Shown here: positions 6,903-37,516 of the stretch, one piece after another | Layout: each line of letters begins with the position of its first letter | Numbering within the stretch: position 1 is the stretch's first letter | Assembly: GCF_900009145.1 (NCBI RefSeq) | Contig: NZ_LN889802.1 | Span: 268,123-305,638 of the forward strand | Direction: 5' to 3' | Origin: Planktothrix tepida PCC 9214 | GTDB lineage: Bacteria; Cyanobacteriota; Cyanobacteriia; Cyanobacteriales; Microcoleaceae | DNA length: 37,516 bases | Made by a program: the position numbers and the translations under genes | Notes under the pieces: model-generated | What the model saw: only the letters and a program-made list of their open reading frames with translations | Databases searched by the model: none | What the model was told of the DNA's origin: nothing

Positions 6903-9687
6903 ATGAGTCTAAATATCGTTACCTTGGTTGGTCGTGCTGGCAGAGATCCCGAAGTTAAATATTTTGGTGCGACCCGTTAAGCGTAAAAGTCATCAACCTT
7001 GATGGTGTAACGCTTGCAAGGAATTGTACAAACATACAAGACCTTGACAACTTAATTCCTGAGTGGGTGAGAATTATTAAGGAGTGTTACAGAAACATAA
7101 ATCTTAACAAAATCTTAATAATACAATTCCCATCGTCTAAATGCGAGACGAAGCAATGCCCCCACTGGGGAGACTGACCATCAAACTGGTGAAGCGGGGC
7201 ATAACGGAGGTAACTCTGAACCCAACAGGGAATCCCTTCTAGTGAGGTGAGTATGAGTAAGGAAAACTGAATCTGCGATTGAACCATCGTTATTGACAAC
7301 AGCCTACGTGGGTTATGGGCTGGGCCAAAAGGCAAGGATAAGGGCTAGGCAACTCGAAGTTTGACCTAGAGCATTCCCAAAGAAACCCGGTGGATAGCAG
7401 GACTCTAACCTCGCCGTAAAGCAGGAATTAGGAACGGGATAACTTCTCGGTAATCTCTCAGGAGGTCGAATACCTGAGTAGGCAGTCAAGCCGCATGATG
7501 CCAAGAAGCGAGATTGATTCAGAAGCCAACGCCTTTAGGAAAGCTAAAGGATATGCTGACGGAATCACGGTGATTTGGAGATAGAAAATCGAGTAAAGGT
7601 AAAAACGTCATGGACACGGCTATTAAACCGATGTATGAATGGGAAACAATAAACTGGGCAAAAGCCCAGAGATATGTTTTCAAGCTTCAAAAGAGAATCT
7701 ATCAAGCCTCTGAACGTGGTGATGTTAAGGCAGTTCGTAAGTTACAAAGGCTGTTGACTAATTCGTGGTACGCCAAAGCTTTGGCTGTCAGGAAAGTGAC
7801 CCAAGATAACAAGGGTAAAAATACTCCCGGCTTTGATGGGATAAAGCGTCTTCGCAATCCTCAGAAAATCAGGTTAGCCAAAGAGTTACACTTCAATGAC
7901 AAATCCGACCCCACTAAAAGGGTATGGATTCCAAAACCAGGCAAAGAGGAAAAAAGACCTCTTGGAATACCTACGATGACAGATAGAGCGAAACAAGCCC
8001 TAATGAAACTGGCACTTGAACCCGAATGGGAGGCTAAATTTGAGCCTAACTCTTATGGATTCAGACCAGGACGGTCAGCACATGACGCAATAGCGGCAAT
8101 ATACAATGGCATCGTTCAAAAACCGAAATATGTTCTTGATGCCGATATTGAAAAATGTTTTGACCAAATTAACCATGAGAAACTACTCGAAAAGTTGAAC
8201 ACCTCACCCACTTTTAGACGGCAAATTAAAGCATGGCTAAAATCTGGGGCAATGGCAGGCGAAAAATTATTTCCAACCCATGAAGAAACTCCCCAAGGAG
8301 GCGATATAACGCCATTATTGGCAAATATAGCTTTACACGGGATGGAAAACGCCTTAGAAGGTAAATTCAAACGAAGAGTCAGCAAAACTAAACAAAAGCG
8401 GGATATAAGCTTTGTTAGATATGCCGATGATTTTGTAATCATGGATGAAGATTTAGATGTAATCCTCGAAGCAAAATCAGTAATCAAAGAATGGTTAAAA
8501 GAAATGGGGCTAACTCTCAAAGAAAGCAAAACTAGAATCACTCACACTTTTGAAAAATACGAAGGTAAAGTGGGATTTGACTTTCTAGGTTTCAATATTC
8601 GGCAATACCCAGTTAGTGATAAACAAAGTGGGTCAATTGGTGGAACCGAATTAAAGAGAGGACATAAAACGCTCATCAAACCCAGTAAAGAAGCCATCCA
8701 AAGACATTTGGATAATATTGACGATTTACTAAGAAGGAATCGTAACTCAAGCCAAGAGCAAGTTATAAACGCCCTAAACCCGGTAATACGAGGATGGGCA
8801 GCTTACTACTCAACGGTAGCCAGTGCCAATACCTTCAGCAAAATCGACAGCATAATTTTTTCCAAACTAAGAGGATGGGCTAACAGCAGAAGTGGACGAG
8901 GACAGAATAAAACTGAAACCGTCTCAAAATACTGGGGAGTCAACAGAGGATTAGGCTGGATATTTATCACCCCCGATAACAAATATGTACTGGAAAAACA
9001 CCAGAACATGAAAATTCGTCGCCATATCAAAGTAAAAGACACAAAAAGTCCTTTTAACGGAGATTGGATATATTGGGGACAAAGATTAAGCCAACATCCA
9101 ATGCTAAGAAATATGGCATCCAAACTTCTTAAAAAACAAGAAGGAAAATGTAACCACTGTAATCTGAGATTCATTAGTATTGACTTGCTTGAAATCCATC
9201 ATATTGACAGAAATCGAGCGAATAACAAAACGAAGAATCTTGAATTACTACATACGCACTGTCACGATATCAGACACGCGAATAAAGAGGTACTCTAACC
9301 AGCCAAGTCACTGAGGAGCCGTGTGAAGCGAAAGTTTCATGCACGGTTCTGAACGAGAGGTAGGAATGGCGACATCCCTATCGACTCTAATAGTCGGGCA
9401 AAGTCGTCTGTAAATTCACACTCGCTGTCAGACGTCGTAGTAGCAAAACCGATGAGCCGGATTGGTTCGATCTTGAACTGTGGAACAAAACCGCAGAAGT
9501 AGCGGCTAACTATGTCCGCAAGGGGACTTTAATTGGGATTAAAGGGGCATTAAAATTTGACCATTGGCAAGATCGCAATACCGGACTTCAGCGTTCTAAA
9601 CCCTTAATTTCGGTTGAAGACTTAGAGTTACTGAGTTCTAAACGGGATGAAGAAGGCGCACCTCGGAACACTTACGATGAGTTTTAA
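6903..9687 (+). CDS. ssb: Single-stranded DNA-binding protein, split by a group II intron
   Basis: Ssb coats single-stranded DNA in replication, recombination and repair. Exon 1 (6903-6966) encodes MSLNIVTLVGRAGRDPEVKYF plus one base; exon 2 (9392-9687) supplies the rest. Joining 6966 to 9392 restores a GAG codon and a continuous frame: 64 + 296 bases = 120 codons, giving 119 residues, the usual size of the short cyanobacterial Ssb. Exon 2 shows VVCKFTLAVRRRSSK, EPDWFDLELWNKTAEVAANY and LIGIKGALKFDHW, the OB-fold strands of the family. Without splicing, translation would read GATR and stop at 6979-6981, giving 25 residues. Functional Ssb therefore needs intron removal, unless the cell has another ssb. 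Confidence 0.93.
7610..9298 (+). CDS. Group II intron-encoded reverse transcriptase/maturase with HNH endonuclease
   Basis: This multifunctional protein helps its intron fold and splice, then drives retrohoming by nicking the target and reverse-transcribing the intron. The 562 residues contain, in order: an RT domain (about 60-330) with RPLGIPTMTDRAKQ, NSYGFRPGRSAHDA, the first catalytic Asp in DADIEKCFD (D178), TPQGGDITPLLANI and the catalytic YADD (271-274); a maturase/X domain (about 350-450) with NPVIRGWAAYY; and a C-terminal HNH nuclease (about 510-562) with C514/C517 and EIHHID (H530, H531). No frameshift or missing catalytic residue is seen, so it is probably active. It sits in intron domain IV and is translated from the unspliced transcript. 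Confidence 0.96.
   Translation: MDTAIKPMYEWETINWAKAQRYVFKLQKRIYQASERGDVKAVRKLQRLLTNSWYAKALAVRKVTQDNKGKNTPGFDGIKRLRNPQKIRLAKELHFNDKSDPTKRVWIPKPGKEEKRPLGIPTMTDRAKQALMKLALEPEWEAKFEPNSYGFRPGRSAHDAIAAIYNGIVQKPKYVLDADIEKCFDQINHEKLLEKLNTSPTFRRQIKAWLKSGAMAGEKLFPTHEETPQGGDITPLLANIALHGMENALEGKFKRRVSKTKQKRDISFVRYADDFVIMDEDLDVILEAKSVIKEWLKEMGLTLKESKTRITHTFEKYEGKVGFDFLGFNIRQYPVSDKQSGSIGGTELKRGHKTLIKPSKEAIQRHLDNIDDLLRRNRNSSQEQVINALNPVIRGWAAYYSTVASANTFSKIDSIIFSKLRGWANSRSGRGQNKTETVSKYWGVNRGLGWIFITPDNKYVLEKHQNMKIRRHIKVKDTKSPFNGDWIYWGQRLSQHPMLRNMASKLLKKQEGKCNHCNLRFISIDLLEIHHIDRNRANNKTKNLELLHTHCHDIRHANKEVL
9316..9349 (+). ncRNA. Group II intron domain V catalytic hairpin
   Basis: The 34-nt element opens GAGCCGTG and closes with CACGGTTC, forming the conserved hairpin with a GAAA tetraloop near its centre (9329-9333). 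The AGC catalytic triad is at 9317-9319. This is the most conserved part of a group II intron and supports an active ribozyme. Confidence 0.93.
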
Positions 9688-33759: not shown

Positions 33760-33801
33760 AACTGATAACTGATAACTGATAACTGATAACTGATAACTGA
33801 T
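33760..33801. repeat. Six perfect AACTGAT heptamers between fabH and fabD
   Basis: This 42-base array is the reverse complement of the one at 31861-31902, with the same copy number. Its last base is the first base (plus strand) of the fabH stop triplet, so it directly abuts fabH. Confidence 0.95.
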
Positions 33802-34793
33802 TATCTTCCCCATTCAAACACGGCAGCCCCCCAGGTTAATCCGGCTCCAAAACCAGATGTAACAATGCGATCGCCGAGTTTAATTTTTCCCTCTCGAACA
33901 GCTTCATCTAAAGCTAAAGGAATAGAAGCTGCCGAAGTATTACCATATTTTGCTAAATTACTAATGACTTTTTCTGAGGGAATATTTAACCGTTCTGCGA
34001 CAGCATCTAAGATACGTTGATTCGCTTGGTGTAGAATTAACCAATCGATTTGATCAACGGTTAAATTCGCTCTAAATAATGCTTTTTCGATAACTTCTGG
34101 AACTTTTTTCACCGCAAATCGATAGATTTCTTGACCATTCATCGTAATGGGATGATAGGTTCCTTGACCAATCGTAATTCCCGGTAATATTTCTTGCGGT
34201 TGGGGTTGATAGGATAAATTTAAAGATTGATTTTGTCGGCCATCACTTCTAATTTCAAATCCCAATAAATGCTCCTGTTCATCAGCCTGTAAAATCACGG
34301 CTCCCGCCCCATCACCGAATAAAATACAGGTTCTGCGATCTGACCAATCAACCCAACGGGATAGAACATCAGCACCAATGACAAGAACAGTTTGATAGAC
34401 CCCTGTGCGAATAAATTGGGCGGCGGTAACTAACCCAAACACAAACCCCGAACAAGCGGCGGTCATATCAAAGGCGACCGCTTTAGTTGCACCCAATTGA
34501 GCTTGAATTAAACTGGCACTCCCAAACAAATCATCAGCCGTTGATGTCGCTAAGATAATTAAATCAATGGCGGCTGGGTCAAGGTTCGCCATGGCGATCG
34601 CCTCTTGAGCCGCCGATGTTGCTAATGTACTTAACCCAGTATTGGGATCAGCTAATCGCCGATGCTGAATTCCCGTGCGAGAAGCAATCCATTCATCGGA
34701 CGTTTCGACCCGTTGAGACAGTCCGTGATTATCCAGTAAAACCGAGGGAGTAGCAGATCCGCAGCCCGTAATTGCAATGCCTGTTATTGTCAT
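33801..34793 (-). CDS. fabH: 3-oxoacyl-[acyl carrier protein] synthase III
   Basis: FabH condenses acetyl-CoA with malonyl-ACP to start fatty-acid synthesis. The start MTITGIAITGCGSATP (ATG at 34793) gives 330 residues, the normal length, with a GGGGGAAG ribosome site just upstream; the frame opens 8 codons earlier. The thiolase-fold triad is intact: C114 in TAACSGF, H255 in LILHQANQRI and N285 in YGNTSAAS. Family motifs DEWIASRTGIQHRR and GFGAGLTWGA are present. In most cyanobacteria plsX lies directly upstream; here an IscB unit separates them, so fabH may rely on read-through or its own promoter. Confidence 0.97.
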   Translation of the reverse strand: MTITGIAITGCGSATPSVLLDNHGLSQRVETSDEWIASRTGIQHRRLADPNTGLSTLATSAAQEAIAMANLDPAAIDLIILATSTADDLFGSASLIQAQLGATKAVAFDMTAACSGFVFGLVTAAQFIRTGVYQTVLVIGADVLSRWVDWSDRRTCILFGDGAGAVILQADEQEHLLGFEIRSDGRQNQSLNLSYQPQPQEILPGITIGQGTYHPITMNGQEIYRFAVKKVPEVIEKALFRANLTVDQIDWLILHQANQRILDAVAERLNIPSEKVISNLAKYGNTSAASIPLALDEAVREGKIKLGDRIVTSGFGAGLTWGAAVFEWGR

Positions 34794-34865
34794 CTGTCTT
34801 CCCCCTTGGAGACCCACACCATAGCTGTAATCAGCTTGGTATTGGGAGGAAAAGGGGGGCAGGGG

Positions 34866-36140
34866 CTATGTTGCATACAAATAACCATCTTTTCTGTGAA
34901 TAAGTGAACAATATTTGTGACTAATACCTTGTACAAGTGTTTTCTTTAAGGAAATATTGAAACTACCTGTTGTACGAACTGCCACACGACCAATATAAGT
35001 TCCCACTTTATGGCCAGAGGAAACAATTGCTTTCACAATATCTCCAGTTTGAAACCCTTTGACGAATTTCAACCTGGGAACATATCGAGATGGGAATCCA
35101 AACTTGTCCGTGCGACACATCTGCCTAGAACCGTGTCCTGTCGCCTTAATTAACAAGGGTTGAGAAGTCAATACCTGCAAAGAATTAACTTCTCCAACAC
35201 AGGCTGCATCTAGCCAATGAGTTTTTGGTAAATTTAACCGGGTTCGATTGAATTTTGTTAAACCACCACTACCCGTAGAAATAGGTAAGCCTGTTTCTTT
35301 AAGACGATTAAACAATGCCCATCGAGTTGAATTAACGGCTGTAGCATCTTTGAGAGGATGTTTAGCTTGAGATAAAATCTTCTTTAAAATGTCAGGTTTA
35401 TGGGTAAGAAATAACTCAATGCTTTGAGTTCCTTTCTGGGTATTGCATTTTTCACAGGCTAGGCATAGGTTAGAAATTCGATTACTTCCACCCTGAGATT
35501 TGGGATGAATATGCTCTATTTGTAAACGCACATTTTCAATACCACAGTAAGCACATTTTCTCTGCCATTTATTCAGTAAATATTCCCGAATTTCATAGCC
35601 CTTTAATTCCCCTTGTTGATATTCAATGCCTGAGATTTCAGGATTATCCAGTTGTTGTAAGTCAAATCTTACTAACTCTTGAACAATGGAACCGATGGGT
35701 GCGAGTCGGAGCAATTTATTCACCCAAGTTAGGGTTGTTTCTACTCGATGCTGTAAGCAGGGTGCTAACCAACCCTCTTGTCGGGTGCGATTTAAAAATC
35801 GAGCCTGACGATAGCGAGTATGGCGGTTTCTTCGAGAGCGACGCAATAAACGACGGGACTCCAAAGACGCTTTTATTGTTTGACCTCGATGGGTTAATTC
35901 AGCACCAAAAATAACTTGCTCATCTTGAACTAAAGCTATCCCCGTAGTTTGAGAACCTGGGTCTAATTTGAGAATAATTAATTGCGGAGTTGCGATTACC
36001 ACCTTTTTGAGAATAATCGTAAATGGATACCTTCTAAATACCGCAGCTTTACCCGCCGTTAACAACTTATGAGCCATTGACGGCTTGCATGGTGTTAGTG
36101 GTTTTTTATTGGTATCAAGGACGAAAACGAGATTAGACAT
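34866..36140 (-). CDS. iscB: IscB RNA-guided nuclease (RuvC/HNH, ancestor-type of Cas9)
   Basis: IscB proteins use an omegaRNA to guide double-strand DNA cutting and are found in IS200/IS605-like elements. Starting at ATG 36140 (GGAGAG site upstream) the protein has 424 residues, typical of IscB. In order: the PLMP domain (about 3-45; NKKPLTPCKPSMAHKLL, AAVFRRYPFTI); RuvC-I with D60 in LKLDPGSQTTGIAL; an arginine-rich bridge helix (96-120, SRRLLRRSRRNRHTRYRQAR); RuvC-II with E155 in VQELVRFD; an HNH domain (about 195-240) with CAYCG, H210 in IEHIHPKSQGGSNRISNL and a second CEKC pair; RuvC-III with H308/D311 in HWLDAACVG; and a C-terminal TAM-binding-like region (GHGSRQMCRTDKFGFPSR). Every expected catalytic residue is present. 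No tnpA lies nearby, so it is a stand-alone copy. Confidence 0.95.
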   Translation of the reverse strand: MSNLVFVLDTNKKPLTPCKPSMAHKLLTAGKAAVFRRYPFTIILKKVVIATPQLIILKLDPGSQTTGIALVQDEQVIFGAELTHRGQTIKASLESRRLLRRSRRNRHTRYRQARFLNRTRQEGWLAPCLQHRVETTLTWVNKLLRLAPIGSIVQELVRFDLQQLDNPEISGIEYQQGELKGYEIREYLLNKWQRKCAYCGIENVRLQIEHIHPKSQGGSNRISNLCLACEKCNTQKGTQSIELFLTHKPDILKKILSQAKHPLKDATAVNSTRWALFNRLKETGLPISTGSGGLTKFNRTRLNLPKTHWLDAACVGEVNSLQVLTSQPLLIKATGHGSRQMCRTDKFGFPSRYVPRLKFVKGFQTGDIVKAIVSSGHKVGTYIGRVAVRTTGSFNISLKKTLVQGISHKYCSLIHRKDGYLYAT

Positions 36141-36159
36141 TGTTGTGTCTCTCCACTGT

Positions 36160-36425
36160 TGTGTAATGTTAGCTTCGGCAATGTTGTAGGTTGGTACTTT
36201 CTCAATACACCTGCCTCCCAAATGGCTAATTAATATTGAGATTACAGAGCTTAGAACTAGCTACGCATTCTAAGGTGTGAACTTTAACGCTTCCCTACAA
36301 CGGAGGTATTTCTACCTGAGCCTGGTCAACTAGGGCTTTTACAAGCCCCCGCTATATTGGTACTCCGATTAGCGGTGGGTTATTGACTGAACCTCTGTTC
36401 TGTATCAAGAGCTTGAAGATGGCGA
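36160..36425 (-). ncRNA. omegaRNA (HEARO-type structured RNA) upstream of iscB
   Basis: IscB guide RNAs lie directly 5' of the gene; HEARO is the Rfam-type name for this motif. Read on the minus strand, a stem of TTGAC (36383-36387) with GTCAA (36325-36329) encloses two perfect hairpins: 36370-36375 with 36349-36354 (CCGCTA/TAGCGG) and 36343-36348 with 36333-36338 (GGGCTT/AAGCCC). A 5-bp hairpin at 36304-36317 and a 7-bp hairpin at 36250-36274 follow. This nested, GC-rich structure stands out from the AT-rich surroundings and has no open frame. The guide would be the minus-strand bases just 5' of the scaffold (about 36421-36445). Both ends are approximate. Confidence 0.8.
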
Positions 36426-36519: not shown

Positions 36520-37516
36520 TTAACCACTGATGGCTTTTTCATCTGGTTCAAGGTGGTGTTGATATTGGGATTGAATGCGTTCTAGCACTTGGTTATCGAT
36601 GGCATCTTTTGCCAAACGAACCGCATTAGCAATTGTTGCTCCTTTCGAGGAACCGTGACTAATAATGCAAACCCCCGCCACCCCTAAGAGTAAAGCACCG
36701 CCATGTTCAACATGATCCACCCGTTGTTTAAACCGCATTAAACTGGGTTTGAGCAAACTTGTTCCTAATTTAGCTTGTAATCCAGAGGTTAATTCCTCCT
36801 TCAGCATTTGTAAAACTGCTTCTCCCACCCCTTCAGCAAATTTCAACAGTACATTCCCGACAAAGCCATCGCAGACAATGACATCAAATTTTCCCGATAG
36901 AACATCTCGCCCTTCAGCATTTCCACCAAAGGCAATCTCAGGATGATTTTCTAGGAGTTGATAGGTGCGAATTGCCAGATCATTACCTTTACAGGCTTCT
37001 TCACCAATATTCAGTAACCCCACTTGGGGTTGGGACGTTCCCAGGACATAACGACTGTAAATCGTTCCCATTACGGCAAACTGTTCTAAAAATTTGGGGC
37101 GACAATCGACATTCGCACCGACATCCAACACCAAAACCGGAGAGTCAGGCTTCATGGTGGGCAAAACAGCACCGATAGCAGGGCGATCAATACCGGGAAG
37201 ACGTCCTAAACGCAACAAAGCCGAAGCCATTGCTGCACCGGAATGACCCGCCGAGACGACAGCATCCGCTTTTTTTTGCTTAACTAAATTCATTGCCACG
37301 TTAATTGAAGCCTTGGGTTTGCGTTTCAATGCTCCCAAGGGTTCTTCGTGCATTTCGATCGTTCCCTCAGCAGGAATAATTTGGGGCAGGGGCAAATTGC
37401 TAGAGTGGTGTTTGAGGGCGGATTCAATTTGATCGGGATCACCAACCAAAAAGACGTCCACGTCCCATTTTTCCTGGGCCATGATTGCCCCTGCAACAAT
37501 TTCGGCCGGAGCATGA
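36520..37516 (-). CDS. plsX: Phosphate acyltransferase PlsX (5' end beyond window)
   Basis: PlsX turns acyl-ACP into acyl-phosphate, the donor for the first acylation of glycerol-3-phosphate in phospholipid synthesis. The frame is open to the right edge; codons before the internal ATG at 37482 read HAPAEIVAGAI, the usual PlsX N-terminus, so the true start lies outside. Visible signatures are DVFLVGDPDQIE, ADAVVSAGHSGAAMASALLRLGR, VLDVGANVDCRP, VGLLNIGEE, VIVCDGFVGNVLLKFAEG and GGALLLGVAGVCIISHGSS. It is a peripheral membrane enzyme and first gene of the plsX-fabH-fabD lipid cluster, now followed by the IscB unit instead of fabH. Confidence 0.96.
   Translation of the reverse strand, partial: HAPAEIVAGAIMAQEKWDVDVFLVGDPDQIESALKHHSSNLPLPQIIPAEGTIEMHEEPLGALKRKPKASINVAMNLVKQKKADAVVSAGHSGAAMASALLRLGRLPGIDRPAIGAVLPTMKPDSPVLVLDVGANVDCRPKFLEQFAVMGTIYSRYVLGTSQPQVGLLNIGEEACKGNDLAIRTYQLLENHPEIAFGGNAEGRDVLSGKFDVIVCDGFVGNVLLKFAEGVGEAVLQMLKEELTSGLQAKLGTSLLKPSLMRFKQRVDHVEHGGALLLGVAGVCIISHGSSKGATIANAVRLAKDAIDNQVLERIQSQYQHHLEPDEKAISG

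Follow-up and report, generated by a model that had tools for sequence, protein, structure and literature searches.

In the 37,516-nucleotide stretch of the Planktothrix tepida PCC 9214 genome analysed here (the window), an intact iscB gene lies within a HEARO/ISC-type IscB-omegaRNA element that has no transposase of its own and that, judging from the comparisons below, has probably spread laterally into the same site in a homing-like manner. The protein is ordinary, the element is complete, and the population pattern around it is informative; the siting of such elements at start codons and the natural trace of homing are the interesting parts of this locus. The element separates plsX from fabH without a transposase and without a target duplication (Table 1).

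Table 1. Features of the element-bearing locus and of a group II intron in the window.
Feature	Position	Strand	Basis and remarks
Whole element	34794..36387	minus	1594 bp; comparison with empty sites and end consensus of other elements; left end GTCAATAACCC at 36387, right end ...CTCCAAGGGGGAAGACAG at 34794
iscB	34866..36140	minus	424 aa, intact; NCBIfam guided_IscB
HEARO / omegaRNA scaffold	36163..36387	minus	Rfam RF02033, 124.2 bits against gathering 83, full model 1-211
Predicted guide, 16 nt	36388..36403	minus	old fabH 5' flank; compared with the G004 and G007 empty sites; putative guide role
Right end with Shine-Dalgarno-like AAGGGGG, 7 nt before ATG	34794..34813	minus	end consensus
ATGA, predicted TAM and fabH start codon	34790..34793	minus	empty-site and end comparison
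fabH, downstream gene	33801..34793	minus	TIGR00747, 378.9 bits; start codon abuts the element
plsX, upstream gene	36520..37482	minus	TIGR00182, 392.5 bits
Group II intron	7610..9391	plus	562-aa reverse transcriptase/maturase (RVT_1, RVT_N, GIIM); domain-5 match at 9314-9391

The gene had been described in a sequence-only reading as an undamaged IscB, and our analysis confirmed this description. The frame runs along the minus strand without a frameshift, the plus-strand reading of the same interval containing 32 stops, and the product matched the NCBIfam equivalog profile guided_IscB with 468.9 bits (cut-off 175, E 7e-141), which places it in that family, in addition to the Pfam domains RRXRR and HNH. 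RuvC I-III, the Arg-rich bridge helix, and the HNH residues were all complete, with D60, E155, H210, H308, and D311 at the positions originally assigned, CxxC pairs at 196/199 and 229/232, and GFPSR at 348-352. Among 29 aligned sequences, the catalytic and zinc-binding residues (D60, E155, H210, N224, C196, C199, C229, C232, H308, and D311) were invariant, revealing no catalytic loss. Structure prediction with AlphaFold gave a moderate-quality model (mean pLDDT 75, pTM 0.57), whose best ten PDB matches comprised nine IscB chains and one IsrB chain, with low query-normalised TM-scores (0.31-0.49 over the first eleven matches), and a sequence search placed TbaIscB, HfmIscB, and OgeuIscB among the best solved relatives. 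A scan of species genomes returned 99 close relatives, of which 80 were kept and 78 of those bore cyanobacterial titles; relatives at some level of identity were also present in 81 plasmid and 52 phage records. On these comparisons, IscB is ordinary in cyanobacteria, and nothing about the window protein is unusual.

The same reading had called the nuclease stand-alone, a view that we dropped when the Rfam search showed the HEARO RNA: because the gene lies within an element with an omegaRNA and defined ends, this IscB does not stand alone. The coordinates of the gene had been given correctly, but the reading had overlooked its minus-strand orientation, the accompanying omegaRNA, where the element ends, and its placement at the start of fabH. 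The omegaRNA is directly upstream of iscB, ending 22 nt before the start codon. The predicted guide, whose length we take from known IscB omegaRNAs, includes AGAGG, a ribosome-binding-like sequence of the old fabH leader. At the empty sites of G004 and G007, the guide flank continues directly into ATGACAATAAC (ATGACA) with no element or duplication, and the guide itself differs from these sites at 2 of 16 bases (G004) and 3 of 16 (G007), the TAM-adjacent base included.

The remaining HEARO elements of the genome provided a further view of these insertions. Four of the seven omegaRNA elements abut a frame of at least 60 codons, namely fabH, efp, tig, and a 172-aa frame without a family match (efp and tig were named by family matches, and the alignments to the EF-P models begin at residue 1 or 2). 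The others are located in the short leader of a frame that is presumably PsaM-like, upstream of a P-II gene (Pfam), and before a 14-codon frame. An intact IscB is confined to the window copy; elsewhere, the genome contains two longer remnants, besides a short piece riddled with stops. When the flanks of the orphan-omegaRNA insertions were joined, the efp empty site was found exactly in 4 genomes and with 1 mismatch in 2, and that of the psaM-like leader exactly in 5 genomes and with 1 mismatch in 3; these joined flanks in 6 and 8 other genomes confirm the element ends. A tig empty site was found in none of the 10 genomes within 3 mismatches. Exact insertion beside a short motif and without target duplication, in the manner of IS200/IS605-type elements, was seen at the psaM-like leader as well as at fabH and efp, and is unconfirmed at tig. 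Six HEARO omegaRNAs of this genome (L185, L186, L187, L188, L189, and L190) have no adjoining IscB, and their left ends read GTCAGCACCCC or GTCAGCAACCC, unlike that of the window element; they are possibly trans-acting or MITE-like copies.

Evidence of lateral spread came from comparing the window genome (G000) with nine other Planktothrix genomes, including G004, G007, G008, and G009, the last of which is a metagenome bin. The element was absent at fabH in eight of the nine, and G009 carried a copy at the same base (L128, C187:38429 onward) that retains the omegaRNA and an open frame and has suffered an in-frame loss of approximately 173 IscB codons, including RuvC-II and HNH; owing to this loss, the G009 copy is no active donor now. 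BLAST-based identities between the two elements were 98.7% for the RNA, 97.4 and 97.5% for the iscB parts, and 100% for the 72 bp leading to the junction, versus 93.4% for plsX, 89.7% for fabH, and 86.5% for fabD in the flanks. Likewise, dS between G000 and G009 was 0.083 and 0.102 for iscB, compared with 0.387 for fabH and 0.267 for plsX. G007, which is empty, is the closest genome to G000 at the fabH locus (dS 0.066 for fabH and 0.126 for plsX). Because the dS of iscB is far under that of fabH and plsX, and G007 is closer yet empty, the element seems to have reached the fabH site in one lineage after the G000 and G009 lineages parted. Thus, for one genome pair at fabH, the element in the shared site is younger than the DNA around it, as expected under homing. 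Together, the low dS, the G009 copy, and the empty site in G007 suggest a recent arrival from another Planktothrix lineage, in line with the earlier proposal that the gene was newly arrived. The dN of iscB was 0.003-0.010, indicating constraint until recently.

A homing mechanism could account for this pattern. The guide of an IscB RNA precedes its scaffold on the 5' side, so that sequence to the left of the element would supply it. At this locus that sequence is the old fabH leader, and with this leader in the guide position, IscB would target the empty fabH allele, using ATGA as the TAM. Cutting of an empty allele encountered by element-bearing DNA would promote copying of the element into it, and we infer that repair of the cleaved empty allele from the element-bearing copy explains the same-site transfer; the same cutting could guard against loss of the element after excision. 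No further target of guide plus TAM was found in the genome within 2 mismatches, which would make the element self-safe; three 2-mismatch matches were detected elsewhere in G004, G005, and G009. In three genomes (L202, L262, and L248), guides that are equal or one base apart stand beside two scaffold variants, suggesting that one element was replaced by another at a single site.

The main rival is ordinary homologous recombination, whereby a G009-like stretch was taken up and exchanged without the help of IscB, an explanation that we regard as unlikely but worth serious weight. Where G009 and G007 differ, G000 is G009-like at 6 of 6 sites in the 40 nt adjoining the left end of the element, compared with 19 of 72 sites at 116-1150 nt left (Fisher p 8e-4 for the left comparison, two sites like neither being left out) and 10 of 105 at 27-1000 nt right; the 26 nt immediately right of the element contain zero informative sites. 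The left-hand pattern is what a short co-conversion tract would leave, but three of these six sites represent changes unique to G007, and for two of the remaining three, the sequence of G008, compared by eye, suggests that G000 and G009 keep the ancestral state. A short patch also fits any gene conversion, and the G009-like sites beyond 116 nt left imply that plsX of G000 is itself mosaic, as recombination would predict. On the other hand, the tract does not appear to extend beyond 116 nt on the left side of the element or 27 nt on the right, and plain recombination would not single out pairs in which the element is more alike than its flanks. There were four such cases among eight same-site pairs, all between more distant genomes (element 96-99%, flanks 81-94%); the other four, between closer genomes, showed no marked gap (element 96-100%, alignable flanks 94-100%, the left flank being unalignable in two of them).

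Two independent transposase-driven insertions at the same ATGA, in G000 and in G009, appear improbable. By a rough estimate, each genome offers approximately 2000 start-codon ATGA sites, such that a coincidence is possible among dozens of elements; nevertheless, the same-site G009 copy shares 98-99% protein identity over its remaining part, versus 82, 79, and 70% for the three full-length G009 copies, and independent hits would have no need to involve the nearest copy. The intact catalytic residues and low dN would also suit a domesticated IscB, inherited vertically and serving a host function such as fabH control, which corresponds to the cellular role that the sequence-only reading had allowed. 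This role gained no support from our data, and we consider it highly improbable: the element is missing here in eight of the nine congeners, internally deleted in the ninth, and recently transferred, and its guide has no other target in its own genome.

Same-site, homing-like spread by a transposase-free element remains our preferred explanation, with slightly reduced confidence because G009 is a metagenome bin, and with moves to new ATGA sites attributed to a transposase that would be supplied in trans. The absence of a transposase noted earlier was upheld for the Y1 type, as all 19 Y1 matches of the genome fell outside the window; since no TnpA (Y1) of its own was found, the element can be called only non-autonomous. 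A Y1 partner within the same genome was considered and rejected, 16 of the 19 matches being identical copies of one TnpA/TnpB element with other ends, and no candidate transposase for moves to new sites was identified in this Y1 set. A search of 110 loci with three Y1 proteins of this genome detected a homologue at L097 and L106 only. At these two loci, the Y1 transposase homologue is near an IscB gene, making both candidate mobilising enzymes.

Across the ten Planktothrix genomes, HEARO insertions were enriched at start codons. There were 89 HEARO matches above the cut-off, of which 86 were studied (two at a contig end and one partial were omitted); nine had no junction, and the remaining 77 junctions were reduced to 70 unique ones when compared over the 14 bases that follow the junction, with at least one site (L229/L238, whose flanks differ) counted twice among the 70. 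With the element removed, a start-like codon was present at the junction RTGA in 42 of 70 cases, compared with 171 of 4167 RTGA sites in the same flanks (Fisher p ~4e-38) and 20 of 628 RTGA sites outside long frames (Fisher p ~2e-33); the other 28 junctions were not start-like. ATGA and GTGA accounted for 62 and 8 junctions, a split that is no independent measurement of the TAM because RTGA was required by the junction search. Start-like junctions comprised 12 of 15 in class 1, the end class of the window element, in which the right end is GTCTCCAAGGGGGAAGACAG or close to it and is followed by ATGA, and 30 of 55 in the other classes. From a wider set with junctions in 85 of 95 loci, only class 1 was used because some class-2 junctions were visibly misplaced (at a GTGAGG or ATGAGG immediately preceding the probable ATGA). 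In this set, 23 of 24 unique class-1 junctions opened at least 60 codons (approximately 5 of the 24 being Planktothrix copies present in the other set too), versus 612 of 2368 same-strand RTGA sites.

The right end of the fabH element could serve as a substitute ribosome-binding site from which fabH would be translated. Its predicted pairing with the anti-SD sequence was -10.3 kcal/mol, versus -7.0 for the native leader. Median pairing was -10.3 for class-1 right ends (n=35) and -3.3 for other classes (n=103); base-shuffled class-1 ends still averaged -7.7, and thus the class-1 pairing partly reflects plain G-richness. Because the other classes favour start codons without such an end, the siting itself does not depend on a replacement ribosome-binding site. 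Given that ATGA is often the start codon and that the right end is ribosome-binding-like, insertion would be tolerated even before essential genes.

The window element shares its RNA scaffold and ORF arrangement with HEARO elements (Rfam RF02033), to which the present analysis adds the start-codon statistics and the same-site transfer. The OgeuIscB, TbaIscB, and OrufIscB omegaRNA (OMEGA) systems have in common with the window IscB the domain order, the catalytic residues, and an upstream HEARO-type RNA, although OgeuIscB chains, at 495-496 aa, are longer than its 424 aa. The TAM of OgeuIscB is NWRRNA, and ATGACA of the fabH site would fit it. The start-codon siting may be partly known already, since the original HEARO description, by Weinberg in 2009, reportedly noted insertion at ATGA/GTGA. 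Our literature search, with Weinberg 2009, Altae-Tran 2021, Kapitonov 2016, and Meers 2023 outside its scope, listed no paper that describes IscB elements inserting at start codons. PMC13180657 contains "start codon" once and gives the TAM of OrufIscB as NTAAA, which differs from ATGA, the predicted TAM of the window element; IscB is not mentioned in the available part of a survey of IS elements in Planktothrix (PMC9366434). RF02033 matches were reported in 65% of the 5' regions of HEARO nucleases, whose 5' spacer was reprogrammed (PMC9755519, available part). According to the available part of PMC11870625, TnpB elements of the IS200/IS605 type, which act as a gene drive, take the guide from their own flank and attack the empty allele, as proposed here; the window element differs in its RuvC-HNH nuclease, its guide at the left end, and its lack of TnpA.

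More broadly, and only tentatively, these elements may be addressed to translation starts. The ATGA/GTGA TAM would be the start codon, the guide would match the leader that carries the ribosome-binding site in conserved housekeeping genes (fabH, efp, tig), a replacement for that site would come with the right end, and IscB would drive the homing of full and nuclease-less (orphan-omegaRNA) copies into these conserved sites across species. Such elements would resemble homing introns, which exploit essential genes. The natural role of IscB for its element has been argued mostly from laboratory assays. At the fabH locus, alleles that are empty, filled, or decayed occur in nature, together with a closely related genome lacking the element and a predicted guide with a known target, and the locus suggests why insertion before essential genes can be harmless: the target motif is the start codon, and the element end is ribosome-binding-like.
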